Positions 7,343 to 29,558 of a stretch of DNA of 64,000 nucleotides are shown here, one piece after another; position 1 is the first letter of the stretch, and each line of letters starts with the position of its first letter. The notes under the pieces are model-generated. The model was not told the DNA's origin. It ran no database searches and was given only the letters and a program-made list of their open reading frames with translations. A program made the position numbers and the translations under genes. The DNA is from Actinoallomurus bryophytorum. Lineage in GTDB: Bacteria; Actinomycetota; Actinomycetes; Streptosporangiales; Streptosporangiaceae. The DNA lies in assembly GCF_006716425.1 (NCBI RefSeq), contig NZ_VFOZ01000002.1:744001-808000 (forward strand), written 5' to 3'.

Positions 7343-7439
7343 GCCAGAACCGGTTCCGCACGGTCTTGAGGTCGCGCCACGGCAAAGGCGGGTGCCACCC
7401 GTCGCCACTCAGTGGCACCCGGCCCGAAGGGCGTACACG

Positions 7440-8165: not shown

Positions 8166-8229
8166 CGAGAATCCTTTCGGCCGGCCCGGGTCGGTACCGA
8201 GTCGGCAGGTCGACTTGAGGCAGGGCGGA

Positions 8230-8745
8230 TCAGGACGGTGCGGCGACCAGCGCGGTTCGCAGCCGGTCCAGGGCCTTGGAGTTCATGCTCTTGACCGTCC
8301 CCTTCGCACAACCCAGCGCCGAAGCGGTCTCCTCGATGCTCAGATCGAGCTCGTGGCGGAGCACGACCACCGCACGCATCCGTGGCGGCAGCTCGGCGAG
8401 CGCCCGGCGCATCGCTCCGCCGTCGAGCCGCCCGTCGATGGCGCCGAACGCGTCACCGGACACCGCGGCGTCGGGCAACTCGCCGGTCGCGCTCTCCCGC
8501 CGCCACCAGGGCCGTCGCGTCTCGTCCAGGAACGCCGAGACGATCGCCCGGCGTGCGTAGGCCTCGGTGCTGGCCCTCTCCCGTATCCGCGGCCAGGCGA
8601 CGTACACCCTGGCCAGCGCCGTCTGGACGACATCCTCGGCGAGAAACCTGTCCCCCGCCGTCAACATGCAAGCGGTGCGGAGCAGACTCACCCGGCTCGC
8701 CCCGACGAATTCCGAGAACTCACGGTCCCGGGTCGTTCGGATCAT
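8230..8745 (-). CDS. SigE-family ECF RNA polymerase sigma factor
   Basis: 171 residues from ATG at 8745, with GAGGAGG 5-6 nt upstream; the frame is open beyond this but not coding. Region 2 (about 10-75) contains LLRTACMLTAGDRFLAEDVVQ and ARVYVAWPRI. Region 4 (about 113-165) contains ELPPRMRAVVVLRHELDLS and the HTH ETASALGCAKGTVKS. Length and motifs fit the SigE-family (actinobacterial group 4) sigma factors. It probably forms an operon with the downstream membrane protein. No target promoter could be assigned. Confidence 0.9.
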   Translation of the reverse strand: MIRTTRDREFSEFVGASRVSLLRTACMLTAGDRFLAEDVVQTALARVYVAWPRIRERASTEAYARRAIVSAFLDETRRPWWRRESATGELPDAAVSGDAFGAIDGRLDGGAMRRALAELPPRMRAVVVLRHELDLSIEETASALGCAKGTVKSMNSKALDRLRTALVAAPS

Positions 8746-13834: not shown

Positions 13835-14287
13835 TCAGCAGCTCACGTGGCCGGGGCTGTTGTGCTTCCACTGGCAGGTGTCCACCGTGGTCCCGGCGGA
13901 CGTGCGCAGGGAGACCTTGTCGGCGGTGTTGTTCCAGACGTACCAGCCGCGGTTCTGGTAGACGTTCGTGCTCGTGTCGGTGCCGCGGCCGGTGTGGATG
14001 TAGACGTACTTACCGGCCTTGATGGAGAACGAACCGAACGTATAGACGTGCTTCTTCGTGTCGCGGACCGTCCAGCCGGCCAGTTTGACGGTCTTCTTGC
14101 CGCCGTTCTTCAGCACCACGTACTCCCGGTCGATCTGGGAGTTGGCGTGCGTGTCCGTGCCCGACGGGTCGTAGACCACCTTGTACAGCTTGACCGTCGA
14201 CGACGCGGCGCTCGCCGGCTCCGCCGCCATCACGGTGAGAGCCGCCGCCCCCGCGAGACCGGCCACTACGGTGCGAGTCATCCCCAT
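13835..14287 (-). CDS. Secreted lamin-tail-domain (LTD) protein
   Basis: 150 residues from ATG at 14287, preceded by GGGGAGAAATAC. The signal peptide spans about 1-29, with cleavage after ASAAS. The mature protein is a single immunoglobulin-like lamin-tail domain: DREYVVLKNGGKKTVKLAGWTVRD, then HVYTFGSFSIKAGKYVYIHTGRG and the NRGWYVWNNTADKV strand. The stand-alone form is common in actinomycetes and is presumed to act extracellularly as a binding module. Two Cys near the C-terminus (DTCQW, HVSC) may form a disulfide. Confidence 0.87.
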   Translation of the reverse strand: MGMTRTVVAGLAGAAALTVMAAEPASAASSTVKLYKVVYDPSGTDTHANSQIDREYVVLKNGGKKTVKLAGWTVRDTKKHVYTFGSFSIKAGKYVYIHTGRGTDTSTNVYQNRGWYVWNNTADKVSLRTSAGTTVDTCQWKHNSPGHVSC

Positions 14288-14467
14288 GTATTTCTCCCCG
14301 TGCACTACGCCCCGAAATCACATGACATAGCGATAGACGCGGGGAAGGCCGCGTACGCCTACGGAGGTGTGGTCACCGTTGCGTAACGCACGGTCAGGTC
14401 CGGCGGGGCCGCCGCGCCGAGTCCGGCCGCCGCTCACCCCGGGTGGGTACCCCCGTCGGCCTCTCGC

Positions 14468-15085
14468 TCAGCCGGACGCGGCAGTGCTCCGAGCCTTCCG
14501 CCGCCGGCGGAACAGCATCACCGAGGCCGCCAGCAGCGCGCCGGCACCCGCGACCGCGCACCAGACGACCCAATCGGGAACCACGCCGGCGACCCGGCTC
14601 CCGGAACTCTCGGTCGCGGTGGTCCGCAGCAGGTCCAGGTGGCTGGCGCAGACGATCGGCCGCCGGTCGGCCTTGGCCGAGGCACAGGCGACGGCCGCCA
14701 GCCGCTGCGGCCGCCCCGTGAGCCGGCCCACCTCCACCGTGACGCTGAACTGATCCGTCTCGCCGGTCGGCAGCGCTCTGGTCCAGGTGATCCGATCCCC
14801 GGAGCGCGCGCCCTTCGGGGTCGAGGAGATCAGCTCAAGGCCCGGAACCAGCGTCTGCGTCAGCAGCAGATCGGGGGTCCTGACGGCCCCGGTGTTACTG
14901 ACCTTGGTGACATACGTGAGCCGGTCCCCCGCCCGCACACTCTTGCGCCCGTCGTCGATCCCGATGCGCAGTGCGTAGGTCTGCTTGGGCTTCGCGACGG
15001 CACCCGCCGTCGCGGACCCTGCCGCGGTGAATGCGACGGCCAGCACCACCGGAAAGATCCGCGGACGAATTCGCCGAAAAAGCAT
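14468..15085 (-). CDS. Membrane-anchored single DUF11-domain surface protein
   Basis: 205 residues. A signal peptide (1-30, cleaved near AGAVA) is followed by one DUF11/CARDB-like beta-sandwich (about 38-125, LTYVTKVSNTGAVRTPDLLLT) and a linker with two Cys. A C-terminal transmembrane helix (about 170-192) and a basic tail RRRRKAR face the cytoplasm. No LPXTG motif is present, so it is a type I membrane protein. It is the last gene of the surface locus on this strand, 113 nt after the WxL-like gene and past a probable terminator. It may act as a membrane base or partner for the DUF11 stalk protein (inference). Confidence 0.72.
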   Translation of the reverse strand: MLFRRIRPRIFPVVLAVAFTAAGSATAGAVAKPKQTYALRIGIDDGRKSVRAGDRLTYVTKVSNTGAVRTPDLLLTQTLVPGLELISSTPKGARSGDRITWTRALPTGETDQFSVTVEVGRLTGRPQRLAAVACASAKADRRPIVCASHLDLLRTTATESSGSRVAGVVPDWVVWCAVAGAGALLAASVMLFRRRRKARSTAASG

Positions 15086-15130
15086 AAATCAATACCTCTG
15101 ACGTCAGAGAAGTGGACTCTGCGCAAAGAA

Positions 15131-15163
15131 TAGGGGCCGGCGGGCCACTTTCCACCGGCCCTA
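15131..15163 (-). terminator. Probable terminator of the surface-protein operon
   Basis: Imperfect hairpin, arms 15131-15143 and 15152-15163 (TAGGGGCCGG paired with CCGGCCCTA with one bulged G, plus two further pairs), about 36 nt after the WxL-like gene's stop on the minus strand. Confidence 0.5.
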
Positions 15164-15198
15164 CTCACGACACGCGGCAGCCTCTCAATAGAGCGTTG

Positions 15199-15741
15199 TC
15201 ACAGAGTCGTCGCCACGTAGTTGAGCGTTCCGGTGTAGGTGTCCGGCCGGACGAACGGGATCGTAATACGGTAATTGTTGGTGATGAGGTCACCGCCCGG
15301 CGCGGACGCCGATGCCTTGGTGGCGACGACGAGCGGCGTGGGATAGGTCAGGTGGGCGTACGCGCCACCCTGGGCGGGCCCGTCGACCTCGAGGGTGTTG
15401 GCCGGGATGACGTCGCCGTTCCCCGGGATGGCCCCGATGAGGTTCAGCGCGGCCGGGACGACAGTGACGTTGTAGCCCGCGAAGTTGTTGGTCGTCACGG
15501 TCATGGTGACCGGACTGCCGCCGGTGGTCGGAGTGGTGCCGGCCACCCCCGTCAGGGTGAACGCGTCGGTGAGACCGGTCAGGGTGATGGCCCCACTGAC
15601 CTGAACGTTGGCGATCGTGGAATCCGAGGCCGTGTCCGCCACGGCCGGCCCGGTCTGGTAGCCGAGCGCGGTGAGGGCGGTGGCCGCCCCGACGAACGCC
15701 AGACCGAGCTGCGCCGCGCGCCATTTCGGTGAAGCTGACAT
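15199..15741 (-). CDS. Small secreted WxL-like surface protein
   Basis: 180 residues from ATG at 15741, with AGGGGGA 8-9 nt upstream. The signal peptide is about 1-36 (cleaved near AVADT). The mature part is one beta-rich domain that closely resembles the last 125 residues of the giant protein just upstream: FTLTGVAGTTPTTG, VTMTVTTNNFAGYNVTV, IPANTLEVDG, NNYRITIPFV and a terminal YTGTLNYVATTL. Layout and operon partners suggest a relative of WxL domains, but the W-x-L motif itself is absent. It lies 37 nt after the giant gene's stop, so it is co-transcribed. Presumed to bind the cell wall (inference). Confidence 0.7.
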   Translation of the reverse strand: MSASPKWRAAQLGLAFVGAATALTALGYQTGPAVADTASDSTIANVQVSGAITLTGLTDAFTLTGVAGTTPTTGGSPVTMTVTTNNFAGYNVTVVPAALNLIGAIPGNGDVIPANTLEVDGPAQGGAYAHLTYPTPLVVATKASASAPGGDLITNNYRITIPFVRPDTYTGTLNYVATTL

Positions 15742-15778
15742 GTATGCATCCCCCTATATCCTGTTTATCAATAAGCCG

Positions 15779-18700
15779 CTATTGAGCGGTGGCTATGTAA
15801 TCGAGGGTCCCGGAATACCGACCGGTGGGGACAAAGGGGATATCAACCTGATAGTCGTTGCTGAGGGAGTCTCCGTTCAGCGCCGACGGCGTGGTCTGGG
15901 TGTGGGTGGTGACGGGAGTGGTCGCGGACAGGGAGCGGAAGATGAAGGCACCGGTCTCACGCACGCGCACGTTCGCGATCGGGATGGCCGCGCCCGTCTG
16001 CGGTGAGGTCAGGCTGGGGGTCGCGGCCTGGACGGTGACGTTGTAGCCGCTGGGACTGTTGGTCGCGACGGTCATGGTCACGGCGCCGTTGCGCGTCGGA
16101 GTGGTGTGCGGGATCCCGGTGAGGGTGAAGGCCGGGGTGAGCTCGGACAGCACGATGCTCCGCGCGGTGACGGCGACGGTGGCCGTGCAGCGGTCGTCGA
16201 GTCCGCCGCTCGGGCAGTTGCTGCCGTCCACGGACGAGACCGCGGTGTTGTCGAGGCTGTGATCGCCCGTGCCGGGGTTGGCGGTGGTGACCGAGTAGGT
16301 GATGGTCGCGGTCGCCGCGAGGGCGAGGTCACCGATCCAGGACAACGTGGGTGCCGCGTAGGTGACGCTGCCCGAGGTGGCGGAGGCGTCGTTGTTGTAG
16401 GCGGCGTCGTCCAGCACTCCGGCCAGTGAGTCGGTGAGCGTGGCTCCGGTGTACGGGGTCTGGCCGGTGTTGGCGATGGTGATCGTGTAGTGGACGGTGC
16501 CGCCCGCGACGACCTCGGGTGTGTCGGCGGTCTTGGTGATCGTCAGCTTCGGCACCAGGACCGTCGCCCGTGCCGTACAGGCGGGGTCGGTGCCACCCGG
16601 CGGGCAGTTGCTGCCCAGCTCGGTCGAGGCGGCGATGTTGACCAGCTGCCGGTCGCCCGGGTCGGGGTTCTTCACCCTGATCGAATAGGTGACGGTCGCG
16701 CTCGTCCCGGGCGCCAGGTCACCGGTCCAGGTCAGGGTCGGGTTGCTGTAGGACACGGTGCCGGAGGTCGATGTCGCGTCGCCGGCGTAGTCGGCGTCGG
16801 GCAGCACCCCGGACAGGGAGTCGGTGACGGTCGCTCCGGTGTAGGCAGTGGGTCCGGTGTCGGCGATGGTGATCGTGTAGTTGACGACACCGCCGGGTGC
16901 GACGGTGGCGGTGTCGGCGGTCTTGGCGATGCTCAGGGCCGGGATCTGAATGGTGACGGTGGTGGTGCAGGCCGGGTCCGACCCTCCGGCCGGGCAGTTG
17001 TTGCCAGGGGTGGTGGAGGTGATCGAGCTGGTCATCGTGGGGCCGCCGGTAGGCGGGTTGTTGACCGTGACCGAGGCCGTCAGCGTCGCCGACGCGCCCA
17101 CGGCCAGGTCACCGGTCCAGGTGACCGACCCGTCGAGGTTGAAGTTGAGGTTTCCGGAGGTGGTGGTGGCGTCGTTGTCGTACGTCGCGTTGTCCAGGGC
17201 GCCGGCGAGGGAGAAGGTGAAGCTCGCTCCCAGGTACGGCGTCTGGCCGGTGTTGGTGACCACGACGGTGTAGCGGACCACTCCGGTCGGGACCGTGGTG
17301 GAGACGTCCGTGGCCGAGGTGATGTTCAGGACCGAGGCCCGCACGGTGGTCGTGCACCGCGGGTCGGCGCCGCCGGTCGGGCAGTTGCTGCCGGGGGTGG
17401 CCGAGGTGAGCCGGTTGCTCAGGGTCTTGTCGCCGTTGTCGGGCCGGCCGACGGTGACCGAGTAGGTGATGGTCGCGCTCGCGCCCGGGTTCAGGGCGCC
17501 GGTCCAGGTCAGGTTCGGTGCGGCGTAGCCGACCGTACCGGTGCTGGCCGAGGCGTCGTTGTCGTACGCCGCGTCGTCCAGCACACCGGTCAGCGTGTCG
17601 GTGAACGTCGCGGCGGCGTACGGCGTCTGGCCGCTGTTGGTGGCGGTGACGGTGTAGTGCACGGTTGAGCCGGGCGTGGTCGTCGCGGTGTCCGTGGTCT
17701 TGGTGAGGGTGAGCGCGGGGGTCAGAATCGCGACGAGCGCGGTGCAGGCGGCGGTGCTGCCGGATGGTGCGCAGGTGCTGCCCTCCGCGGTGGAGGAGAC
17801 GGTGTTGGCGAGGAGTTTCCCGCCGGTGGCCGGGTTGGCGACGGTGACCGAGTAGGTAATGGTCACGGTCGCGCCGACCGCGACGTCACCGGTCCAGGTC
17901 AGGTTCGGGGCCGTGTAGGAGACGACACCGGCGGACGCTGCCCCGTCGTTGTCGTACGCGGCCTCGTCGATCACACCGGACAGCGGGTCCAGAACCGAGA
18001 CTCCGGTGTAGGGGGTCTGCCCGGTGTTGTGGACCGTGATCGTGTAACCGACCGTGCCACCGGGCACCGTCGCGGACGCGCTCGCGGTCTTGAGGATGGT
18101 CAGGGCGGGGACCAGCACGTCGACGACGGCGCTGCAACGCGAATCGCCGCTCCCGGTCGGGCAGTTGCTGCCGGGGGCGTTGGAGATGCTCGTCGTCACG
18201 ATGTGGCGGCTGCCCGTGTCGGGATTGTTGACGGTGAAGGAGGAGGTCACGGTGACGGTGCTCCCGACCGGGACGTTCCCAGTCCAGGTCAGTCCCCCGG
18301 CCCCGATCGACAGCACGCCTGAGGTGGCGCTCTGGTCCCCGTTGGGCGTGGCGTCGGCGGGCAGAGTGGGGGCGCTGAACACGACACTGATGCCGTTGTA
18401 GGCGGTCTTGCCGGTGTTGGTGATGGTCGTGCTCAGATGCACCACCCCGCCCGGCGTGGTGGTCGCCACGTCGGGAGCGCTGACGATGGTCAGGCTGGAG
18501 ACCGTGACGGTCGCGGTGCAGCGCGGGTCGGTGCCGCCGGCCGGGCAGTTGCCTCCGGTGGAGGGCGAGGACAGCGTGTTGACCAGGCGGTCGTCGCCGG
18601 TCGCCGAGCCGTGCACGGTGACCGAGTAGGTGACGGTGACCGAGCCGGTGGCGGGCACGTTCCCGGTCCAGGTCAGGTTCGGTGCGGTGTAGCCGACCGT

Positions 18701-21700
18701 ACCGGCGGTCGCGGACGCGTCGTTGTTGTAGGTGGCGTCGTCCAGCACCCCGGTCAGCGGGTCGGTGAACGTCGCCCCCAGATACGGGCTCGCGCCCGCG
18801 TTGGCGATCGTGACCGTGTAGGAGACCACTCCGCCTCGGGTGGTCGAGGGCCCTCCGGCGAGCTTGGTGAACGTCAACTGGCTGGAGGCGGTCACCGGGA
18901 TGGTCACGGCACATCGCGTGTCGGAGGACCCCGACAGGCAGTTACTGCCGACGTTGGCGGAGGTGATGGTGTTGACCAGGCTCTGGTCACCGGTGCTGGG
19001 GTTGGCGACCGTGACCGAATAGGTGATCGTCGCACTCGCCCCGACCGCCAGGCTCCCGCTCCAGGTCAGGTTCGGACTGGCGTACGCGACGGTGCCGCTG
19101 GTCGCGGAGGCGTCGTTGTCGTACGTCGCGTCGTCGAGCACTCCGGACAGGCCGTCGCTGAAGGCCGCACGGGTGTAGGCGGTCTGCCCTGTGTTGGTGA
19201 CGGTGATCGTGTACGTGACGGCCGAACCCGCCGTCCCGAACGGCACACTCGCGGTCTTGGCGATGGTCAGCCCCGGCGTCAGCACGGCCACCAACACGTT
19301 GCAGGCCGCATTGCCGCTGCTGGGCGGGCAGGTACTGCCCACGTCGGTGGAGACGACGCTGTTGGTCAGCGTTCTGTTGCCGGTGTCGGGCCGGTTGACG
19401 GTGACCGAGTAGGTGATCGTCGCACTCGCCCCGACCGCGAGGTTCCCGGTCCAGGTCAGCGTCGGGCTGGTGTAGGACAGGGTTCCGCTCGTGGCGGAGG
19501 CGTCACTGTTGTAGGTCGCGTCGTCCAGGACCCCGGCCAGGCTGTCGGTCGCCGTGGCGCCGGCGTACGGAGTCTGCCCGGTGTTGTTGATCACGATCGT
19601 GTAGTTGACGACGCCACCGGCGGTCTGGGTGGTCACATCGGCGGTCTTGGTGAGCGACAGGGCCGGCAGCAGCACGTTGGAGGTGGCGGTGCACCGCGGG
19701 TCCGTCCCCCCGGCCGGACAGTTGTTGCCCGGCGCCGAGGACACGAGTGTTCCGACGAGGACCTTGTTACCGGGGTCGGGGTTACGGACGGTCAGGGTGC
19801 CGGTGATCGTGACGACCCCGCCGACGGGAATGTCCCCGGTCCAGGTGATCCCGGTGGAGTTCAGCAGCACCGTGCCCGAGGACGCGACCTGGTCTCCGTT
19901 GGGGATGGCGTCATCGACGACATCGGTGCTGCCGGCGAAGACGCTGATTCCCACGTACGGGGTCTGGCCGGTGTTGGTGAACGTCGCGGTCAGATGCACC
20001 ACCGACCCAGGCGTCGTACTCGACTCGGCGAAGCTCTGTTGCAGGAGCAGCTGGGAGACCCGGACCGTGGCCGCGCACCGCGGGTCGGTGCCGCCCGCCG
20101 GGCAGTTGCTTCCCACGATGCTCGAGACGGCGGTGTTGGCCAGGATGCCGTTACCGGTGTCGGGGCTGTGCACGGTGACGGAATAGCTGATGGTGGCGGT
20201 GGCGCCGACCGCGAGGTTCCCCGACCACGACAGGGTGGGGGCGGTGTAGGAGACGGTGCCCGAAGAGGCCGAGGCGTTGTTGCCGTAAGTCGCGTCGTCA
20301 AGCACCGCGGACAGGTCGTCGGTGAACGCCGCTCCCGTGTACACGGTCTCCCCGGTGTTGGCCACCGTCACCGTGTAGGAGACGGTTCCGCCCGCCACCG
20401 TCGTGGGGTTGGCAGCGGTCTTGGTGATGGTCAGCTGTGGCACCAGCACGGTCACCCGCGAAGTGCACGCCGCGTCGCTGCCGCCCGCCGGGCAGTTGTT
20501 GCCGAGCGTCGCCGAGGTGACGGTGTTGACCAGGTGCTTGTCGCCCGGGTCGGGATTCTTGATCGTCACCGTGTAGGTGATGGTCGCGGTCACCCCGACC
20601 GGCAGGTCGCCGGTCCAGGACAGAGTCGGGGCCGTGTAGGACACCGAGCCCGTACTGGCCGTTGCGTCGTTGTTGTAGTTCGCGTCGGTCAGGACGCCCG
20701 ACAGCGAGTCGCTGAACGCCGCCCCCGTGTAGGGAGTCGGACCGGTGTTGGCGGCCGTCACCGTGTACGTGATGGTCCCGCCCGGCGTGATCGTCGCGAC
20801 ATTCGCGGTCTTGGTGATGCTCAGCTGCGGAATCTGGATCGTGACGGTCGTGGAGCACGCCGGATCGGTTCCCCCGGCCGGGCAGTTGTTGCCCGGAGTC
20901 GTGGAGGTGATCGCGGAAGTCATCGTCGGCCCGCCGGTCGGCGGGTTGTTGACCGTCACCGACGCCGTCAACGTCGCCGACGCCCCGATCGGCAGGTCAC
21001 CGGTCCAGGTCACCGACCCGTCGACGTTGAATACCAGGACCCCTGACGTAGTGGTGGCGTCGTTGTTGTACGTCGCGTTGTCCAGCGCCCCCGCCAGCGA
21101 GAAGTTGAAGTTCGCTCCCAGGTACGGGGTCTGGCCGGTGTTGGTGACCACCACCGTGTAACGCACCACCCCGGTCGGCACCGTCGTGGACACATTCGCC
21201 GAACTCGTGATCGTCAACTTGGGGATCAGCGCGGTGACCGTGGCCGTGCAGCGGGGGTCGGATCCGCCGGCCGGGCAGTTGCTGCCCGCGGTCGCCGAGG
21301 ACACCGTGTTGGTCAGGGTCTTGTCTCCCGCGTCCGGGGACTTCACGGTCACCGAGTAGGTGATGATCGCCACGCCGCCCGCAGCCAGGTTCCCGCTCCA
21401 GCTCAGCGTCGGCGCCGTGTAGGAGACCCCGCCGGAGGTCGCCGAGGCGTCGGCGTTGTACGTCGCGTCGTCCAGCACCCCTGACAACCCGTCGGTGAAC
21501 GCCGCGCCCGTGTAGGCCGCCTGACCGCTGTTGGTGACCTTCACCGTGTAATGCACCGTGTCACCCGGCGTGGCGGTGGCCACATCGGCCGTCTTCGTGA
21601 TCGTCAGCGCCAGCAGGTCCACTGACGCCTGACAGCGCACGTCGGTGCCGCCCGAAGCGCAGTTGGCACCCAGCGTCGCTGAGGTGACCGTGTTGGACAT

Positions 21701-24700
21701 GATCCCGTCACCGGACCCCACCGGTCGGACCGTCACCGAGTACGTGATCGTCGCCACCGCGCCCGCCGCGAGGTTCCCGCTCCAGGTGATGTTCGGGCTG
21801 GTAAAGCCCGCTGACCCCGAGGTCGCGGCGACGTTGTTGTCATAGGCGGCGTCATCGAGCACGTTCGTCAGCGGGTCGGTGAGGCTCGCTCCGGTGAACG
21901 CGTTCGTCCCGGTGTTGCGGACGGTGATCGTGTAGTGGATCACCGATCCGGGCGCGGCGGCGGTGGTGTCGGCGGTCTTGGTGATCACCACCGGCCCGAC
22001 GCCCACCACCAGCGTGACGGCCCGGGTGTCGCTCTGGTTGTTGGCGTCGACCACCTTGACGGTGAAGGGGTAGCTCCCGCCCGTGGTCGGGATGCCCGAC
22101 AGCAGTCCCGTCGCGGCGTTCAGCGTCAGGCCGGGCGGCAGACTCCCCGCGCTGACCGACCACACGTACGGCCCCGTACCACCGGAGACCGTCAACTGAT
22201 CGCTGTAGGCGACGCCGACCTGTCCGGCAGGCGGGGGCGGGAAGTCCAGCGTCGGCGATGCGGCGATCACCACGGTGGCGGCCCGGGTGTCGCTCTGGTT
22301 GCTCGCGTCGACCACCTTGACGGTGAAGGGATAGCTCCCGCCCGTGGTCGGCGTACCCGACAGCAGTCCCGTCGAGGCGTTCAGCGTCAGGCCCGGGGGC
22401 AGACTCCCCGCGCTGACCGACCACACGTACGGCCCCGTACCACCGGAGACCGTCAACTGATCGCTGTAGGCGATTCCGGCCTGCCCGGCGGGCGGCGGGC
22501 CGAACGTCAGCGTCGGTGAGACGTTCGGAGTGACCGCCGCCGAGCGCGCCGACGGCGGACCAGGACCGGCGAGGTTCTGTGCCGTCACGGTGAAGGTGTA
22601 GGCGGTTCCCGGGGTCAGGCCGGTCGCGGTCTGTGTCGTCCCGGTGCCGGAGAACGTCTGTGGTGCCTGCGCCACCGCGCCGATGAAGGGCGTGATGGTG
22701 TACCCCGTGATCGCGCTCCCGCCGTTGGACGGAGCCGTCCAGGTCAGCGTCGCCGACGAGTCACCAGCGGTGGCCGCGGTGATCACCGGCTGCCCAGGGA
22801 CGGTGTACGGGATCACCGCGTTCGACTGCGGGCTCGCCGAACTGGTGCCGAGCGCGTTCACCGCCGCCACCGTGAACGTGTACGACGCTCCGGCCGACAG
22901 CCCGGTCAGCGTCCGCGTCGTCGTGGAGGCGTCGAAGGACTGGGGTGTCTGGGCGACGCCGGCACGGAACGGCGTCACGATGTACCCGGTGATCGGACTC
23001 CCGTTGCTCGCCGGCGCCACCCAGGTCACCGTCGCGCTCGTGACCCCCGCCGTCGCCGTCGGAGCCACCGGTGTCGCGGGTTTGTCGGTGTAGACATAGG
23101 CCGCCGATCCGGCGACGCCCGAGGTCACTACCGTCACGGTCACCGCCGCCGCCGATGTACGGGCCGGCATCGAGGAGATGCTCAGGGTGCCGTCGGGGTT
23201 GACGGTGAAGCAACCCGTGGCCGGCCCCGACGCGCAGGGCAGCAGCACGACGGGCGTGCCCGCCTGCTGTTCCGCGGGGGTTCCGATCTCGATGGCGGTC
23301 GCCCCGGTGAGGTTGCCTCCGCCGACCGTCACCGCGATCCCACCGGCGATCGTGCTGCCGGCCGGGCTGACGGTGATCCCCGACGGGGCGGCCGGGATCG
23401 TGCCCGCGGTCGTCGTCGTGGCGATACCGGGATTGGCGTCGACCGATGAGGCCGTGACGGTGGAGGACGTCTGGATCAGGGTCGGCGTGACGCTGCCTCC
23501 GGTGACGATGCCGACGACAGTGATCTTGGACAGATTCGTCCCTCCGGCGAACGGCGTATTGCTGTTCGTACAGGTGATCCTTTGTCCCGAGGGGGCACCG
23601 CAGACCCAGCCCGTTCCGAATGCCCCGACCGGCACCACGCCGGCGGGCACCGTCTCCGTCACCGAGACCGGAGAGGTCTCGTCAGTGCCCGCCGAGACGC
23701 TCGGCGTCACCGAGTACGTCACCGGATCGCCCGGCTGCGGCGACGAGCCGTTGAAACTGGTCTGCACGACGTTCAGGTCCGGAACCGGGTTGAGACTCAG
23801 GACCTTGGCGTTGTCGATCTCGTGGAAGTCGGTCACGGACCCGGTGGACCCCACCCAGCCGAAGGCGAGCTGACGGGGGATGCCACCTGCGTTCAGCCAG
23901 GTCGACGACGGATACAACGTCGGCGAGACCACCGGCAGGGTCCCCTGCAGCGTTCTCGGCGTCCCGGCCACGGGTGTGAACACCACCTTGTAGGTACCGG
24001 CCGCCACGGTGATGCCGGACGCCGTCACGAGACTCACGGCCGTCGGGTTGAGGACCACCTCCATTGGCACCAGAGAGTTCGCCCGCGTCGTTCCGTGCAT
24101 CGGGACCACAGGGGACGTCGTCGTGCTGGCGGTGCTGTTGATCGCGCAGTATCCGGTGATGCCCGTTCCCGGACCGCGGATGACCACCTGCCCGGCGACC
24201 TTTCCCCCGTTGGTGCTGATGTACGGCGGATCGGTACAGCCACTTCCCTCATAGACGCTGTTGCTGAAGTTCCCGAATACGTCCATCCCGACGCCGAGAT
24301 AGCCGTTCGCCAGCCCGGGGAGGTTCCCCTGTTTGCTGGAGGAGTAGCCGAGCGCGCCACCCGGCTGACCGATGTTCGCCGGGGGCAGCGGGTTGGCCGG
24401 GTCCACCGCCGCCGCCACGAAGGTCATGCCGTCGGCGTTGTTTCCGCCGTACTGATAGCTGTTGAACGTCACGTCCAGTCCCTGCGACGTCGGCGCACTG
24501 GTGGCGCCGAAAAGGCCGCCCTCCTGGAACGACGAGGTGTTCGTCAGGCGCAGCGTCCCGAGTCCGGGGGCATCGGTGTTGGCCGGACAACTGTGCAGAC
24601 CGGTACCGCTGGGATTGCCGGAGGCGGAAAGGCATGCGGTGTTGGTCCCCGTCGCCGCGGCCGGCAGCGCGGGCAGGTTCACCGGGTAGGCGGGATCTGG

Positions 24701-24898
24701 CGTGTTGTTCTTGAAAGGCTGGTTGAACAGCGTGCTGCCCACCGCGAACGCCGGCCGGGGCGCCAGACCGGTCACCGGTACGCTCAGCGCGGCGCCGAGC
24801 AGACCGGCCAGCACCATCCGCGCGACCCGCCGGCGGACCGCGGGCGTCCAGCACAGCGTCGGAAACGCACCTGTACCGGGAAGGGAACGCCTAGACAC
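15779..24898 (-). CDS. Giant surface adhesin: L-type lectin, IPT, FN3, He_PIG, 15 DUF11 repeats, WxL-like C-terminus
   Basis: 3039 residues from GTG at 24898, overlapping the DUF916 gene's stop (GTGTCTAG). Order: signal peptide (~1-52); legume/L-type lectin-like domain (~55-375, with NNADGMTFV and GYLGVGMDVFGNF); a DUF11-like module (~376-495); an IPT/TIG-like module (~498-605); two FN3 domains (~606-790); two near-identical He_PIG Ig domains (~795-965); fifteen DUF11 repeats of about 129 aa (~970-2912); and a terminal WxL-like domain (~2915-3039) homologous to the next gene's product. There is no membrane anchor or LPXTG motif, so retention must come from the last domain. It looks like a long stalk presenting a glycan-binding head. 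The reading frame is intact over 9.1 kb despite the repeats, so it is under selection. Confidence 0.85.
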   Translation of the reverse strand: MSRRSLPGTGAFPTLCWTPAVRRRVARMVLAGLLGAALSVPVTGLAPRPAFAVGSTLFNQPFKNNTPDPAYPVNLPALPAAATGTNTACLSASGNPSGTGLHSCPANTDAPGLGTLRLTNTSSFQEGGLFGATSAPTSQGLDVTFNSYQYGGNNADGMTFVAAAVDPANPLPPANIGQPGGALGYSSSKQGNLPGLANGYLGVGMDVFGNFSNSVYEGSGCTDPPYISTNGGKVAGQVVIRGPGTGITGYCAINSTASTTTSPVVPMHGTTRANSLVPMEVVLNPTAVSLVTASGITVAAGTYKVVFTPVAGTPRTLQGTLPVVSPTLYPSSTWLNAGGIPRQLAFGWVGSTGSVTDFHEIDNAKVLSLNPVPDLNVVQTSFNGSSPQPGDPVTYSVTPSVSAGTDETSPVSVTETVPAGVVPVGAFGTGWVCGAPSGQRITCTNSNTPFAGGTNLSKITVVGIVTGGSVTPTLIQTSSTVTASSVDANPGIATTTTAGTIPAAPSGITVSPAGSTIAGGIAVTVGGGNLTGATAIEIGTPAEQQAGTPVVLLPCASGPATGCFTVNPDGTLSISSMPARTSAAAVTVTVVTSGVAGSAAYVYTDKPATPVAPTATAGVTSATVTWVAPASNGSPITGYIVTPFRAGVAQTPQSFDASTTTRTLTGLSAGASYTFTVAAVNALGTSSASPQSNAVIPYTVPGQPVITAATAGDSSATLTWTAPSNGGSAITGYTITPFIGAVAQAPQTFSGTGTTQTATGLTPGTAYTFTVTAQNLAGPGPPSARSAAVTPNVSPTLTFGPPPAGQAGIAYSDQLTVSGGTGPYVWSVSAGSLPPGLTLNASTGLLSGTPTTGGSYPFTVKVVDASNQSDTRAATVVIAASPTLDFPPPPAGQVGVAYSDQLTVSGGTGPYVWSVSAGSLPPGLTLNAATGLLSGIPTTGGSYPFTVKVVDANNQSDTRAVTLVVGVGPVVITKTADTTAAAPGSVIHYTITVRNTGTNAFTGASLTDPLTNVLDDAAYDNNVAATSGSAGFTSPNITWSGNLAAGAVATITYSVTVRPVGSGDGIMSNTVTSATLGANCASGGTDVRCQASVDLLALTITKTADVATATPGDTVHYTVKVTNSGQAAYTGAAFTDGLSGVLDDATYNADASATSGGVSYTAPTLSWSGNLAAGGVAIITYSVTVKSPDAGDKTLTNTVSSATAGSNCPAGGSDPRCTATVTALIPKLTITSSANVSTTVPTGVVRYTVVVTNTGQTPYLGANFNFSLAGALDNATYNNDATTTSGVLVFNVDGSVTWTGDLPIGASATLTASVTVNNPPTGGPTMTSAITSTTPGNNCPAGGTDPACSTTVTIQIPQLSITKTANVATITPGGTITYTVTAANTGPTPYTGAAFSDSLSGVLTDANYNNDATASTGSVSYTAPTLSWTGDLPVGVTATITYTVTIKNPDPGDKHLVNTVTSATLGNNCPAGGSDAACTSRVTVLVPQLTITKTAANPTTVAGGTVSYTVTVANTGETVYTGAAFTDDLSAVLDDATYGNNASASSGTVSYTAPTLSWSGNLAVGATATISYSVTVHSPDTGNGILANTAVSSIVGSNCPAGGTDPRCAATVRVSQLLLQQSFAESSTTPGSVVHLTATFTNTGQTPYVGISVFAGSTDVVDDAIPNGDQVASSGTVLLNSTGITWTGDIPVGGVVTITGTLTVRNPDPGNKVLVGTLVSSAPGNNCPAGGTDPRCTATSNVLLPALSLTKTADVTTQTAGGVVNYTIVINNTGQTPYAGATATDSLAGVLDDATYNSDASATSGTLSYTSPTLTWTGNLAVGASATITYSVTVNRPDTGNRTLTNSVVSTDVGSTCPPSSGNAACNVLVAVLTPGLTIAKTASVPFGTAGSAVTYTITVTNTGQTAYTRAAFSDGLSGVLDDATYDNDASATSGTVAYASPNLTWSGSLAVGASATITYSVTVANPSTGDQSLVNTITSANVGSNCLSGSSDTRCAVTIPVTASSQLTFTKLAGGPSTTRGGVVSYTVTIANAGASPYLGATFTDPLTGVLDDATYNNDASATAGTVGYTAPNLTWTGNVPATGSVTVTYSVTVHGSATGDDRLVNTLSSPSTGGNCPAGGTDPRCTATVTVSSLTIVSAPDVATTTPGGVVHLSTTITNTGKTAYNGISVVFSAPTLPADATPNGDQSATSGVLSIGAGGLTWTGNVPVGSTVTVTSSFTVNNPDTGSRHIVTTSISNAPGSNCPTGSGDSRCSAVVDVLVPALTILKTASASATVPGGTVGYTITVHNTGQTPYTGVSVLDPLSGVIDEAAYDNDGAASAGVVSYTAPNLTWTGDVAVGATVTITYSVTVANPATGGKLLANTVSSTAEGSTCAPSGSTAACTALVAILTPALTLTKTTDTATTTPGSTVHYTVTATNSGQTPYAAATFTDTLTGVLDDAAYDNDASASTGTVGYAAPNLTWTGALNPGASATITYSVTVGRPDNGDKTLSNRLTSATPGSNCPTGGADPRCTTTVRASVLNITSATDVSTTVPTGVVRYTVVVTNTGQTPYLGASFTFSLAGALDNATYDNDATTTSGNLNFNLDGSVTWTGDLAVGASATLTASVTVNNPPTGGPTMTSSITSTTPGNNCPAGGSDPACTTTVTIQIPALSIAKTADTATVAPGGVVNYTITIADTGPTAYTGATVTDSLSGVLPDADYAGDATSTSGTVSYSNPTLTWTGDLAPGTSATVTYSIRVKNPDPGDRQLVNIAASTELGSNCPPGGTDPACTARATVLVPKLTITKTADTPEVVAGGTVHYTITIANTGQTPYTGATLTDSLAGVLDDAAYNNDASATSGSVTYAAPTLSWIGDLALAATATITYSVTTANPGTGDHSLDNTAVSSVDGSNCPSGGLDDRCTATVAVTARSIVLSELTPAFTLTGIPHTTPTRNGAVTMTVATNSPSGYNVTVQAATPSLTSPQTGAAIPIANVRVRETGAFIFRSLSATTPVTTHTQTTPSALNGDSLSNDYQVDIPFVPTGRYSGTLDYIATAQ
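16164..21991. repeat. Array of fifteen DUF11-coding repeats (~390 bp each)
   Basis: Fifteen consecutive units, each encoding about 129 residues. Each opens with (L/I)TITKTA..., continues YTVTVxNTGQTPYTGA and LDDATYNNDA, then LTWTGxLAVGASATITYSVTV, and closes with NCPAGGTDPRC. All 15 contain a Cys-x8-Cys pair in the last loop. The units are diverged rather than identical. The strongest pair is units 3 and 13, which share the unusual NNPPTGGPTM segment. Confidence 0.9.
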
Positions 24899-25841
24899 CT
24901 TGGTCGTCTTCGTTCGCGGCCTGCTCCGCGTGGAGGACTGAGGCGGCGGCGAGCACCTTGGCCCGGTAACGGCGTCGCGCGAACCAGCCCAGCAGCAACA
25001 GCGCCAGCAGCCCGCCGAGCAGGATCGCCAGCAGGTGCAGCGGGAAGATGATGATCCGGACGGCCGCGCTCGTCCTCCCGCCGGAACCTGGCACCGACAC
25101 GGTGGCGTGGCAGACGCACATCAGCGGCGGACTCCAGCGGGCGGTGATCTCACGAGTCGAATCACGCAGCACGGTGAAGTCGGGAAACGCCACTCTGTCT
25201 CCACCGACATCGACGTGCAGCTTTCCCTTACCGCGGAAGTCGCGATGCACCGTGCCGCTGTCGTGAACCGTGGTGCTGAGGAGTATCGGCCCGTGCAGTG
25301 CGAAGCCGGGTGCCCGCACACGCGAGACCTCGACCGACCTGCTGACCGGGCCTGGGACGGTGATGAACACCGGAGTGGCGATTCCGCGGTTGATCCTGAT
25401 GTTGGCCGCGTTCCGGCCGGCCGGGACCTTGAAGATCAGGGCGAGTTGGTGATCGCCGGGTTCCGCCCCGGCCGGCATGCTGACGCGAAATGTCACGTTC
25501 GCCGTCGTGCCGGGCGCCACGACAAAATGCGTCGGAGTGACCTGAACCCAGTTCGCCGCCGCATAAGGGGCATCGGGCTTGAAACTAAGAGCACCGTTCG
25601 CACTCGCCGTGAAGTCGGACTTCTGAACAGTAACCGTAAATGGCTTTCGTCCTCCATTGATTACCTGGAACCTCCGGGCCGCCGCGCTCGCACCGGGCGG
25701 AACGACCAGCCGAGTTGGAGCCACCTCGAGCGAGAAGACGGGTGAGGGAGCAGAAGTGGCGACAGCAGTCGGAATATGCGCCGATAGGAGGCAGATGATA
25801 CCCAAAATGGCGCCGATCTCACGACGGGCTCGATCGGTCAT
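24891..25841 (-). CDS. DUF916/DUF3324-type membrane protein (WxL-interacting-protein-like)
   Basis: 316 residues from ATG at 25841, where a good signal peptide begins; ATG at 25886 and a start at 25913 are in-frame alternatives. After the signal (1-30) comes a DUF916-like beta-sandwich (about 35-140: FSLEVAPTRLVVPPG, then VTFRVSMPAGAEPGDHQLAL), a second beta domain in the DUF3324 position (about 145-262), one membrane helix (about 265-287), and a basic cytoplasmic tail. This is the layout of the proteins encoded beside WxL proteins in Firmicutes, thought to hold WxL proteins and peptidoglycan together. The stop overlaps the start of the giant gene by 8 nt, so translation is coupled. Homology is inferred from pattern and context. 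Confidence 0.7.
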   Translation of the reverse strand: MTDRARREIGAILGIICLLSAHIPTAVATSAPSPVFSLEVAPTRLVVPPGASAAARRFQVINGGRKPFTVTVQKSDFTASANGALSFKPDAPYAAANWVQVTPTHFVVAPGTTANVTFRVSMPAGAEPGDHQLALIFKVPAGRNAANIRINRGIATPVFITVPGPVSRSVEVSRVRAPGFALHGPILLSTTVHDSGTVHRDFRGKGKLHVDVGGDRVAFPDFTVLRDSTREITARWSPPLMCVCHATVSVPGSGGRTSAAVRIIIFPLHLLAILLGGLLALLLLGWFARRRYRAKVLAAASVLHAEQAANEDDQGV

Positions 25842-26139
25842 GGATCCTGTCAAAGCATCGCACTGATACTGGAAGATTTCCGACATGCTAAACCGCCCAC
25901 CCCGGATGATCACGGCGAGTATTTATCCGATCACCACGACGATCAAACGCCATCTTCCGGCTATCTCCTACGGGCACTTCTTTCGGACGCCGGACGCAGG
26001 TTAATTGCACCTGAATAGCGTTCTATCGGCCGCCGCCGGCCGAGGTGCGACCACGCACGAAGTGGGTAAATCGGAGTTAGCCGGAGGACGACGGAATCCC
26101 ATTCGGGATGCAAGTTTTACTCTTTGAAGGGGGTACACG

Positions 26140-26763
26140 ATGCGCTGCCATCGCCTGTCGATCCTGCTCGTCCTGTGTGCGGGAACGCTGACGTTGGCCG
26201 CGCCGAGCGCGGCGGCCGCCGCCGGCGGGCACCACCGAGAGGCGCATGACCACGCGTCCGCGCACAAGCGGGAGTCCTTCCAGGCTTCCACCTCGGTGGG
26301 GATACATGTCCTTCCCGCAACGGCCAATCCCGGGGGCCCGGGCTCGGGACCGAACGGCCCGGGTGGAGCCCCGTCCGCCGGATCAGGCGACGGCACCTCC
26401 GCCGGAGCGCACTCCGGGTCGGACAACGGCATCTCCGCCGAAGTGGAGTCCGGCGGTGAGTACGACGCTTCGTCCCACTTCGGCTCTGGCGATCAGAGTC
26501 GCGGCAACCCGCGGTTCGCCCGCCCGCCCCGCCGGGCACGCGGCGCGCTCCGCGGCCGGGCGCATGGAGCATCCCACTCCCGCAGGCACGGTGCTCCCCA
26601 TCACGGCTACCTGCCGTTCACGGGCTACAGCGTCATGACCATCGCGCTGAGCGGAACGGCGGCAGTACTCGCCGGCTCCGCACTGCTGTGGGCATCGGTC
26701 AGGCGACGGAAGCGGGCAGGCCGGTGCCCTGTCCCGGAAGTCGCCGCCGGACCTCCCGGATAG
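26140..26763 (+). CDS. LPXTG sortase-anchored low-complexity surface protein
   Basis: 207 residues; GAAGGGGG precedes the ATG. The signal peptide is about 1-28. The middle (about 55-125) is a Gly/Ser/Pro-rich low-complexity spacer followed by a basic Arg/His-rich stretch. The C-terminus is a complete sortase signal: LPFTG at 158-162, a hydrophobic helix at about 165-186, then RRRKR. The protein should therefore be covalently attached to peptidoglycan by a sortase; no sortase gene is in the window. It is divergent from the DUF916 gene, sharing a 298-bp intergenic region relatively AT-rich for this genome. A small LPXTG protein is also a standard member of Firmicutes WxL operons. Confidence 0.82.
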   Translation: MRCHRLSILLVLCAGTLTLAAPSAAAAAGGHHREAHDHASAHKRESFQASTSVGIHVLPATANPGGPGSGPNGPGGAPSAGSGDGTSAGAHSGSDNGISAEVESGGEYDASSHFGSGDQSRGNPRFARPPRRARGALRGRAHGASHSRRHGAPHHGYLPFTGYSVMTIALSGTAAVLAGSALLWASVRRRKRAGRCPVPEVAAGPPG

Positions 26764-26804: not shown

Positions 26805-28199
26805 TCAGGTTCGCCGCGGTGGCGGCGTCGCGGGTGCGGGGCCGAGAGACTGCAGCGCGACGTCCGCGTACACCCTCGCTAACGCGTCATCGCGGCGGCA
26901 CGCGGCGTTCCTGACCGCGAGGGCGGCGTTCCGCAGCCGGCGGGTGCTCCACTCCCGGTCGAAGAGCGGCGCGACGGTGAGGAGCAGCTCCGCGGCCCGG
27001 GTCAAAGGGCCGCCCGGCTCTCTCGCCGCGTTCTCGATGGCGGTGAGGACGGCGTCCTGTTCCACGAAGAGCCAGGTGCGAGCCGCCTCGACCGTGACCG
27101 ACCGCTCGCCGGGACAGGGGCCGGGCGAAGCCTCCGTCACCGGCCGGGAGCCGGCCGGGAGCGGCTCGCCCAGCGCCTTCGCCACGCCGCGGGCCGCCGT
27201 GAGGTAGTGGTCGAGCAGTCTCCGGAGGGCGCGTACCCGCTCGCCCTGCCGGCCGGTCCGGTTCAGGGCGAACACGCGCAGCAGGTCGTGGAAGCGGTAG
27301 CGGTTCGGGGCGTGGCACTCGAGGAGGCTCAGGTCGGCCAGGGTCTCGAGGAGTTCGTCCGCGCACTGGCGGCGCAGGCCGAGTGTGGCGCCCGCCGCGC
27401 CGGTCGAGAAGCCGGGCCCGTCGGCCAGCGCCAGCAGGCGGAACGCCCTCGCCTCATCGCTTCCCAGCTGCTCGTAGCCGGGACGGAAACACGCGACGGC
27501 CGCGGGCAGCTCCTCCACGCGTCCGTGCGCCAGCCGGCGTGCCAGCACGCCGACCGGGGACGCGGGACGCGCGGCCAGCCACGTACCGGCGGAGCGGATC
27601 GCCAGCGGCAGGAAACCGCAGGCCGCGACCAGGTCCAGGGCCGCGCCGCGTTCGGCCGCGACGCGGTCCGCGCCGGCGACGCTCGTGAGCAGCGTCATGG
27701 CCTCGTCCGGTTCGAGCACGTCGAGGTCCAGCCCGCTCACACCGGGCAGGCCTGCCATCGTGGTGCGGCTCGTCACCAGGACCGCGCATCCCGGCGCACC
27801 GGGCAGCAGCGGCGCCACCTGCGCCGGGCACCGGGCGTCGTCCAGGACCACCAGCATGCGCCGCCCGGTCAGCTCCGAGCGGTACAGCGCCGAGCGTTCC
27901 TCCAGCGTCTCGGGTACGTCACGCCGGCCGAGAGCGTGCAGCAGGCCGCCGAGCACCGCGTACGGCTCGGCGGGGTGGCCGGTCATCCCGCGCAGGTCCG
28001 CGTAGAGGCGTCCACCGCGGAAGCGCGTACCTGCGGCATGCGCGACGTGGACGGCCAGGGCGGTCTTGCCGACGCCGCCCATGCCGTTCACGGCGGCGAC
28101 CGGCACCGACCGGCCGGGCACCAGCACATCGGCCAGGTCGGCGACGGCGCCGCTACGGCCGGTGAAGTCTCCGATGTCCGGCGGCAGCCCGTACGGCAT
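26805..28199 (-). CDS. NB-ARC (AP/STAND) ATPase lacking SARP and TPR domains
   Basis: 464 residues from ATG at 28199, which has GGAGGAGGAG just upstream. Walker A GMGGVGKTALAVH (about 39-51), Walker B MLVVLDDARCPAQ, the sensor VLVTSRTTM and the GxP motif region CGFLPLAIRSAG are all present. A winged-helix follows (LGSDEARAFRLLALADGPGFS, ...YRFHDLLRVFALNR). AfsR-like relatives have an N-terminal SARP DNA-binding domain and a C-terminal TPR array; both are missing, and the protein stops about 100 residues after the winged helix. It may be a stand-alone signalling switch or the remaining core of a larger regulator. A strong hairpin lies 35 nt upstream of the start. Confidence 0.82.
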   Translation of the reverse strand: MPYGLPPDIGDFTGRSGAVADLADVLVPGRSVPVAAVNGMGGVGKTALAVHVAHAAGTRFRGGRLYADLRGMTGHPAEPYAVLGGLLHALGRRDVPETLEERSALYRSELTGRRMLVVLDDARCPAQVAPLLPGAPGCAVLVTSRTTMAGLPGVSGLDLDVLEPDEAMTLLTSVAGADRVAAERGAALDLVAACGFLPLAIRSAGTWLAARPASPVGVLARRLAHGRVEELPAAVACFRPGYEQLGSDEARAFRLLALADGPGFSTGAAGATLGLRRQCADELLETLADLSLLECHAPNRYRFHDLLRVFALNRTGRQGERVRALRRLLDHYLTAARGVAKALGEPLPAGSRPVTEASPGPCPGERSVTVEAARTWLFVEQDAVLTAIENAAREPGGPLTRAAELLLTVAPLFDREWSTRRLRNAALAVRNAACRRDDALARVYADVALQSLGPAPATPPPRRT

Positions 28200-28233
28200 C
28201 GAGCTCCTCCTCCGGGCGAGGTTCCGAATGACA

Positions 28234-28271
28234 GAGCCCTGCACCGGTCCGTCACCTCCGGTGCAGGGCTC
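28234..28271 (-). terminator. Strong hairpin upstream of the NB-ARC gene
   Basis: A perfect 14-bp stem, arms 28234-28247 and 28258-28271, with a 10-nt loop. It lies 196 nt after the AAA-ATPase stop and 35 nt before the NB-ARC start on the same strand. It could end the upstream transcript or act as a leader attenuator for the NB-ARC gene. Confidence 0.6.
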
Positions 28272-28466
28272 CTAGGCACCCGGCCACAGCCAGGCGACCT
28301 TCCCCCGTCATCGCCCGGCAACGCAGCGGCATTGGCCTCCGGGCGAATGTCCGGGCCTTTACCCCCTCGGCCCGTCCACAAGATGAATTCTGCGGGACGG
28401 CGTTCAACGTCTGATCAACGTCTGATCAACGCCCACGACAACCGCGTTTCCCCAGGTGGAAGCGGA

Positions 28467-29558
28467 CTATAGGTAGAAGCCGGTGTCGGAGATCGGCGGC
28501 GGCGTGGCCGTGGTGCGGCCGTCTCGGCGGGCGTACAGCTCGGCGAGTGTCGCGCCGTGCGGGACCGTCTCGGCGGTGCCCAGCCAGGCGGCGGCCTCGG
28601 CGGGCGACATCCGGCCGACCTCGATCTGTGCGAGGCAGCGGCCCGGCCGTACGACCGCGGGGTGCAGAGCGGTGAGCGGCTCGTTCGTCGTGATGGCGAC
28701 GAGCACGTCGCGGCCCTGGCCGAGCAGGCCGTCGGTCAGGTTGAGCAGCCGGGACAGTGCCTGGCCGGTGGCGTTCTTGGCATCGCTGGAGATCAGCTCG
28801 TCACAGTCCTCGACCACGAGCAGCCGCCAGCGGCGGTCGTCGTCGTCCTCGCCGACCGCGACCTCCATGAGGTACGCGGGGTTGCTGAACAGCTGCTCCG
28901 GATCCAGCACGCAGTCGAACTGGGCCCACTTCGACCACTCGCGGGCGAGAGCGCGCAGGGCGGTGGTCTTGCCCGTACCCGGCGGTCCGTGCAGGAGCAC
29001 CAGCCGGCCGCTGATGTCGTCCGGCGTCACGTCGGTGAGCCGGTCGATGGCGGTCGCGGCGGTCGCGGGGTAGTTGTCGCGGATCTCCGGCCAGGTCGCC
29101 GCCGTGATGGACCGCTGGCTACGGGACGCGCCGTGCGCGCCCAGGTGCCAGAAGCCCATGTCGACCCGGTCCTCCTCCGGGGGTGGCGGCTCGGCGGCGT
29201 CGCGGAGCGCTTCGTCCAGTACCGACGAGCACAGCTCGTCGCTGATGGCGGTCACCTCGACCATGCCCGACCCGCCGCGCCAGCGCACGGATCGCAGCGT
29301 CCACCCGTCACCGCGCGCCAGGACCTGCTCGCGGTTCTCCTCGCGCGACATGCGCATGACCTGGGCGCCGGCCGGCCGCAACGGCGCGTCGGGCCGGATG
29401 CGCTCCATGCGCCGGGACCGGGCGTACGGCTCCCGCCCGGCGGCGAACGCCTCCAGGGCCAGGACGTCGATCACGTCGCCGACCGTGTCGGTGGCGTCGA
29501 CCGAGAACGCCACGGCAGGCTCCGGCTCGGCTCCGTCGATCGGCATGAAATCGGACAT
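28467..29558 (-). CDS. DUF5925 and AAA-ATPase domain protein
   Basis: 363 residues. The N-terminal DUF5925-like domain is at about 10-130. A single AAA module follows: Walker A LLHGPPGTGKTTALRAL (about 186-202), Walker B LLVVEDCDELI (about 247-257), sensor 1 VLVAITTNEPL, and an arginine-finger region HPAVVRPGRCLA. The domain looks catalytically complete. A conserved actinobacterial family of unknown role, probably a cytoplasmic remodelling ATPase. Its start lies 11 nt after the stop of a frameshifted small gene on the same strand, and no Shine-Dalgarno sequence is visible, so translation may be coupled. Confidence 0.85.
   Translation of the reverse strand: MSDFMPIDGAEPEPAVAFSVDATDTVGDVIDVLALEAFAAGREPYARSRRMERIRPDAPLRPAGAQVMRMSREENREQVLARGDGWTLRSVRWRGGSGMVEVTAISDELCSSVLDEALRDAAEPPPPEEDRVDMGFWHLGAHGASRSQRSITAATWPEIRDNYPATAATAIDRLTDVTPDDISGRLVLLHGPPGTGKTTALRALAREWSKWAQFDCVLDPEQLFSNPAYLMEVAVGEDDDDRRWRLLVVEDCDELISSDAKNATGQALSRLLNLTDGLLGQGRDVLVAITTNEPLTALHPAVVRPGRCLAQIEVGRMSPAEAAAWLGTAETVPHGATLAELYARRDGRTTATPPPISDTGFYL

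Follow-up and report, generated by a model that had tools for sequence, protein, structure and literature searches.

A 64,000-nt stretch of the 9.47-Mb genome of the soil actinomycete Actinoallomurus bryophytorum (G000:C2:744001-808000, called the window below) carries a cluster of five genes, for which an earlier sequence annotation (the original prediction) had proposed a cell-surface system resembling the WxL operons of Firmicutes. An open reading frame (ORF) check of the window confirmed all five genes in their places, including a divergent gene for a sortase substrate with an LPFTG motif. Two names are used throughout: WLIP denotes the DUF916-like membrane protein, and SD denotes the shared small domain of a small secreted protein and of the C-terminus of a giant protein. 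The cluster has the following features, with the basis of each assignment in brackets (HMM, hidden Markov model; TM, transmembrane):

14468..15085, minus strand: secreted single-DUF11 protein with a C-terminal TM helix (DUF11-TM), 205 aa (ORF, domain scan)
15199..15741, minus strand: small secreted protein, signal peptide and one SD, 180 aa (ORF, alignment)
15779..24898, minus strand: giant surface protein, 3039 aa (ORF and domain scans)
15785..16177, minus strand: C-terminal SD of the giant, WxL-like, both Trp positions being occupied by Tyr (sequence and profile comparison)
16178..21985, minus strand: stalk of the giant, 15 DUF11/DUF7927 repeats (domain scans, repeat count)
23789..24748, minus strand: L-type-lectin-like head of the giant, about residues 51-370 (PF18483 in relatives; ERGIC-53 matches in the PDB)
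24891..25913, minus strand: WLIP, DUF916 family, 340 aa (ORF, WLIP HMM, family profile)
26140..26763, plus strand: small LPFTG sortase substrate, divergent, 207 aa (ORF)

The WLIP consists of a signal peptide, an immunoglobulin (Ig)-like PGBD at about residues 55-190, a second domain of Ig size and a C-terminal TM helix from about residue 281, which was recognized by a hydropathy heuristic; its true start may be Met26 (25838). The giant contains, in this order, a signal peptide, the L-type-lectin-like head, fn3 and PKD-like domains, the 15 repeats and the SD. Its gene starts inside the WLIP gene, with 8 nt shared at the junction, and both this overlap and the composition of the giant agreed with the original prediction. 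It had also been proposed that the small protein and the giant end in a common domain that lacks W-x-L, and indeed the two are 44% identical over 142 aligned positions (E 6e-22), with W-x-L in neither. Six sortase-domain matches were found in the host genome.

Kinship of the WLIP and probable kinship of the shared domain

The WLIP had been assigned to the DUF916/DUF3324 type. On its own, the window protein scored 14.5 bits against the DUF916 model PF06030 (cut-off 27.3), and 17 of 36 WLIP relatives were matched at E up to 1, the best at 3.9e-4. When ten further actinobacterial DUF916-like proteins were compared with PF06030, seven passed the cut-off, two stayed below it, and L175, a divergent WLIP, gave no match. 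Profile-profile comparison with hhalign linked the WLIP family to the distant actinobacterial DUF916 set (99.2%, 1.7e-19, 203 columns) and that set to the WxLIP of Bacilli (97.4%, 239 columns), while the direct comparison of the WLIP family with the Bacilli WxLIP gave 88% (3e-6, 84 columns). An Ig-like DUF11 control reached 42% over 66 columns against the WLIP and 68% (73 columns) when compared with the distant set; because this control also matches, part of the signal is general Ig likeness. On this transitive profile evidence, the WLIP was accepted as kin of DUF916 through actinobacterial intermediates, whereas full membership in the WxLIP family was not accepted. A profile search of the PDB with the WLIP family retrieved only three weak transhydrogenase matches (E 0.38 and above).

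The DUF3324 half of the assignment was not confirmed. The window WLIP had no match to the DUF3324 model PF11797, this model was absent among the 25 of 44 families shown for the 36 WLIP relatives, and the second domain reached only 0.08% against the Bacilli WxLIP in hhalign; the positive control L221 matched PF11797 at 9.3e-28. The lack of DUF3324 weighs against a WxL-type system, as do several of the results on the SD that are given below. Residues 266 and 268 of the WLIP form a C-x-C motif that is invariant in all 36 aligned sequences and might be a metal site or provide an intermolecular disulfide. Distant DUF916-like genes are widespread in the host family (L037-L050), many of them with an actinobacterial WxL-type gene immediately upstream, and form a broad actinobacterial WxL/WxLIP family.

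HMM searches did not detect the proposed WxL likeness of the SD. The Pfam WxL model (PF13731) matched none of 54 SDs, the actinobacterial WxL HMM matched one, which equals the controls (1/54), and the Bacilli WxL HMM matched none. The Pfam result is weak evidence, because two of four large proteins from Bacilli WxL clusters also failed the cut-off of that model (two passed, one was below, one had no match). The actinobacterial WxL set comprised 41 rows with 35 distinct sequences, 26 rows of which had been picked by a Trp-requiring pattern, and seven of 33 loci gave no row; the HMM was built from Trp-bearing rows. The Bacilli set of 16 sequences included one fragment of 49 aa.

Profile-profile comparison of the SD with the actinobacterial WxL domains gave 23%, rising to 60% after column trimming, and 16% for the giant-borne SDs alone. 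The match is collinear over 107 columns with a score of 32.2, which none of 240 column shuffles reached (shuffle maximum 31.8). Against the Bacilli WxL domains the SD matched only weakly (hhalign 1.8% and 2.6%; score 19.7 over 83 columns), and this score was reached by seven of 240 shuffles, none with an equal number of columns. At the sequence level, the putative tie of the SD to the actinobacterial WxL domains was obtained by profile-profile comparison only, and the SD is the least secure part of the parallel with WxL systems. A match of 57.9% between the SD and the DUF11 control was rejected as an artefact of DUF11 ends in the SD alignment; it fell to 1.1% once these were trimmed. A PDB profile search with the SD family had no match.

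Tyr78 and Tyr163 are invariant in all 54 SDs. In the hhalign alignment Tyr78 occupies the position of the first WxL Trp, and we place Tyr163 at the second by motif (YxGTLxYxA versus YxTTLTWxL), as the local alignment ends just before it. Both W-x-L motifs of the WxL domain are thus missing from the SD, with Tyr at both positions. An Asp-x-Arg-Gly precedes the first motif in WxL domains (Siezen 2006, PMC1534035); the SD lacks it and has the consensus TTNNxAGY there. Between the actinobacterial WxL-type domains and those of Bacilli, homology is clear (hhalign 98%, 143 columns). The former kept the first Trp in 34 of 34 distinct HMM-aligned hits (32 of 33 loci), a conservation that is partly built in by the selection of the rows, and have a mostly aliphatic second position (33 of 41 rows; the others F, H or T).

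The setting of the SD is WxL-like, that is, the domain is C-terminal and a DUF916 gene lies in the cluster, with the exception of Streptosporangium-group giants that have no intact adjoining WLIP gene. A separate line of support is the protein L273_8, a natural anchor swap that carries the same lectin head (E 8.4e-132) on a WxL-type C-terminus, which matched the actinobacterial WxL HMM at 8.2e-16 and the Bacilli WxL HMM at 1.3e-5, with no Pfam WxL match. Because of the profile-profile shuffles, the gene context and this swap, homology of SD and WxL is likely but unproven. An unlikely alternative is that the SD is an unrelated secreted beta-sandwich, DUF4402-like or otherwise Ig-like, which converged on or was recruited to a DUF916 partner, giving a WxL-like system with a non-homologous anchor. 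DUF4402 was matched by three of the 54 SDs (best E 0.001), more than WxL, and the failure of HMM searches between the families in both directions and the weak Bacilli tie fit this idea, but it would have to account for the long collinear match to actinobacterial WxL and for the same gene orders, the same C-terminal position and a homologous DUF916 partner.

Gene neighbourhood and distribution

A contig scan with a seven-row WLIP alignment yielded 38 named loci. WLIP loci were found in Streptosporangiales genera, in Frankia, Actinokineospora, Actinophytocola, Subtercola and Microlunatus, and in metagenome-assembled genomes named Jatrophihabitans and Acidimicrobiaceae. Three layouts recur: WLIP-giant-small and small-WLIP-giant, each with an optional DUF11-TM gene at the end, and small-WLIP alone; in other loci, relatives of the DUF11-TM gene follow either the giant gene or that of the small SD protein. 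In total, 49 distinct Actinomycetota WLIP loci were tabulated after removal of same-genome duplicates and exclusion of L093, in which the WLIP is split over two frames. The genes clearly recur together, with the SD present in 41 of these loci (41 by gene calling, minus the weak partial L182, plus L095 from six-frame search) and the lectin giant in 32. Among the loci that lack the SD, L066 ends at a contig edge, L083 keeps a remnant of it, L182 has a WLIP-like gene broken over frames, and L183 carries a Pfam-WxL-type gene instead.

The LPFTG gene lies upstream on the opposite strand in 14 of the 49 loci including the window, all of them giant-bearing; L078 has LPYSG there instead, and no LPFTG gene was found in Frankia and other small-WLIP-giant loci. 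Since no more than 14 of the 32 giant-bearing loci have the gene upstream, the LPFTG partner is not a core component everywhere. The predicted recurrence of a WxL-operon set held for the component set and the gene orders, which match those of Bacilli, with this partner found in part of the loci.

Two observations weigh against the receptor-anchor reading given below. In the WLIP loci L174, L177, L178 and L179 no SD was found in a six-frame search, and six Streptosporangium-group loci have a giant with no intact adjoining WLIP gene. In genomes of this group the giant is encoded away from the SD-WLIP pair, which complicates the picture of a simple complex from one locus; the giants at L266-L271, which stand apart from the pair, have 21 repeats. 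Short WLIP-like fragments persist beside the giant in L266 and L276.

This separation bears on an explanation that we rate marginally below an unrelated SD in probability, namely that the WLIP does not anchor permanently but assists assembly or folding at the membrane and passes SD proteins on to the wall. The giant would then be held otherwise, for example via the DUF11-TM protein, whose gene in several clusters comes after that of the giant or of the small SD protein. This explanation is opposed by the tight WLIP-giant junctions elsewhere, as 26 of 31 measured junctions overlap and 14 do so by exactly 8 nt (ORF starts were set to the longest possible, and larger overlaps may be start-choice artefacts), and by the published model in which the WxLIP binds and stabilises WxL (PMC10599100).

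At the genome level, 297 genomes of the order were drawn. A strong WLIP (E below 1e-100) was present in 29 of them and a strong lectin head in 28, apparently of the same draw; both occurred together in 25 genomes, against a chance expectation of about 2.7 (29 x 28 / 297), a comparison that is no formal probability because the genomes are related. That the genes are chance neighbours and form no system is extremely improbable, as no supporting point was found and as this joint occurrence and the presence of the same genes together in many genera oppose it. Four genomes had only the WLIP (G772, G802, G842 and G856, the last with a broken giant), and three had only the lectin (G878, G839 and G821), in stalkless called proteins of 726-935 aa.

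Among 396 genomes of the phylum, the SD was found only in the host genome, in one further clear case and in one weak case; because of this rarity, the system is patchy. Over 37 loci, from which L089 and L095 were excluded along with L182 and L183 as weak or broken, SD and WLIP distances correlate with r 0.83, a value that common ancestry would largely account for.

Lectin-like head and stalk of the giant

With E values of up to 1 allowed, the lectin model PF18483 matched 23 of the 26 family members; the best E was 3.7e-10. The window giant itself matched at E 4.4e-4 with 20.6 bits, below the cut-off of 78.3. A search of the PDB with the head gave six weak matches (E 0.34-0.48), all to ERGIC-53, an L-type lectin. 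Because of the matches in relatives and the ERGIC-53 hits, the head was assigned as lectin-like. An NCBIfam scan of SD, WLIP and lectin yielded nothing convincing, and PDB searches with single sequences of the WLIP, the small protein and a stretch of the stalk yielded nothing useful. At L273, positions 5890-8697 encode a lectin head, a CBM35-like module and a WxL-type C-terminus without a DUF11 stalk.

Repeats were counted in 33 complete giants. Twenty have 15 repeats, 13 have 21, and no other number was found (15 versus 21 in the three batches: 19 versus 1, 1 versus 6 and 0 versus 6). L211 and L070 are one and the same giant. The count excludes giants truncated at the end of a contig or locus (L066, L069, L076, L084, L272, the second L267 copy and others that were completed later), and also the fragment L086, the short Acrocarpospora corrugata copy L083, L276, which is broken, and L273-L275, which are lectins without a stalk. 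The sharpness of the two numbers is striking, yet the giants are related, so few independent events underlie it. If 4-5 nm per domain are assumed, the stalk would reach roughly 60-100 nm. The A. corrugata copy (L083/L034) encodes a giant of 807 aa with an SD remnant downstream, and could be an assembly repeat collapse or a decayed gene.

In the window, 11 of the 15 repeats contain the Lys/Asp/Asn triad of isopeptide domains, while repeats 3, 6, 10 and 13 have none of the three residues; DUF11 and DUF7927 have been reported as isopeptide domains (PMC12617251). Over 306 repeats from 20 giants, Lys, acid and Asn were all present in 136 and all absent in 102 (expected about 57 and about 23, respectively), and 68 repeats were partial. 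Lys at the isopeptide position never occurred without the acid. The two Cys of each repeat are invariant (306/306). The window's string of triad scores is identical in four other giants (L059, L063, L064 and L067). The triad-free repeats of the window are spaced nearly regularly, which may point to a larger unit made up of three or four repeats.

Among the 20 giants, between 2 and 11 repeats per giant have the full triad, which is far less frequent in some relatives; in one type of Herbidospora giant, represented six times, only 3 of 15 repeats have it. Given this variation, a rod stapled throughout cannot be taken as the rule, which detracts from the picture derived from the window; stapling varies much more than stalk length. 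In repeat-by-repeat comparisons with four relatives, the best match lay on the diagonal for 9, 9, 6 and 1 of 15 repeats, the last being Frankia; because of this fall, positional orthology of the repeats is not shown beyond the closer relatives.

Further genes flank the cluster. A gene for a secreted lamin-tail-domain protein (PF00932, 2.3e-24; 13835-14305, minus strand) directly adjoins it, and genes for an NB-ARC ATPase and a DUF5925 AAA ATPase (26805-29558, minus strand) adjoin the LPFTG gene.

Proposed function and comparison with known systems

Taken together, the cluster is probably the equivalent, in actinobacteria, of the Csc/WxL surface systems known from Bacilli, with the WLIP as a receptor, SDs as strongly altered anchors and a partly stapled, lectin-tipped rod. 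All proteins of the cluster would be secreted, and the WLIP would be held in the membrane by its C-terminal helix. Its DUF916-type Ig domain is predicted to receive the SDs of both the small protein and the giant, and this contact would fix the two proteins non-covalently at the wall. From there, the giant would carry its L-type lectin head beyond the wall by means of a rod made of 15 Ig-like repeats. In the window, 11 of these could be stapled by intramolecular Lys-Asn isopeptide bonds; every repeat has a Cys pair, and the four repeats that lack a staple occupy set positions. The small SD protein may be a separate unit bound to the wall or to the WLIP; in loci that have it, the LPFTG protein would be a partner attached covalently to the wall. 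The system would most likely serve to bind surface or environmental polysaccharide, in adhesion or substrate capture. Thus, the interpretation given in the original prediction is partly supported overall.

A more far-reaching proposal, which is possible but which we hold with rather more doubt than confidence, is that a fibrillar lectin is anchored by a WxL domain of a third class, in which invariant Tyr stand in for the two core Trp. Selection would have set the length of this lectin at exactly 15 or 21 Ig units; many of the units would be isopeptide-stapled, and hinges without a staple would lie at constant positions. Across Actinomycetota, this would constitute a wall-clearing molecular ruler that is held non-covalently by a membrane receptor.

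More than 91% of WxL sequences have been described as being from Firmicutes (PMC9772566). A description of this system in actinomycetes was not found in a non-exhaustive literature survey by title and start of the abstract. In Bacilli, Csc clusters consist of cscA with DUF916, cscB for a small WxL protein, cscC for a large WxL protein and cscD for a small LPxTG protein; ten cscC proteins have an N-terminal ConA-like lectin domain, and carbon source acquisition was proposed as the role (PMC1534035). Eleven stretches from Bacilli plasmids were examined for gene order, and both gene types are annotated in seven of them. The order small-WxLIP-large occurs in L219 and L221 and, as read from the sequences, in L212; L218 has WxLIP-small-large, and L214, L215 and L217 have the pair only. 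In L221, the WxLIP gene and that of the large protein, which is named MucBP and lies just below the WxL cut-off, overlap by 14 nt. L220 is a variant with LPXTG and sortase, L216 has an annotated DUF916/DUF3324 gene after a WxL match, and L213 and L222 carry no annotation.

The system of the window shares with the Csc/WxL clusters a membrane DUF916 protein, a small single-domain protein, a small LPxTG protein and a large protein with a C-terminal domain and, in some, a ConA-like lectin, as well as the gene orders. The component trio of DUF916, small and large domain proteins is thus present, with the SD in place of WxL. It differs in its occurrence in Actinomycetota, in the lack of W-x-L, DxRG and DUF3324, in the size of the large protein (about 3,000-3,900 aa versus about 500-1,000 aa in Csc), in the extra DUF11-TM gene and in the LPxTG gene, which is divergent and often not found. 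The WxLIP of the DUF916-DUF3324 type (Hassan 2023, PMC10599100) resembles the WLIP in its signal peptide, DUF916-type Ig domain, second domain of Ig size, C-terminal TM helix and length of about 340 aa, whereas the window WLIP lies below the PF06030 cut-off, its second domain is not DUF3324-like, and it has the invariant C-x-C.

The actinobacterial WxL-type domains are like the SD in being C-terminal anchor-type domains with an adjoining DUF916 gene in the host family, but they keep the first Trp and mostly have an aliphatic residue at the second position, in contrast to the two Tyr of the SD. The giant, finally, resembles the CLIPPER/DUF11 fibrillar adhesins (PMC12617251, PMC9210967) in its tandem DUF11 stalk, isopeptide triads and adhesive-type head, and is distinguished from them by an SD end instead of a sortase motif and by its repeat number of 15 or 21 in the 33 complete giants.

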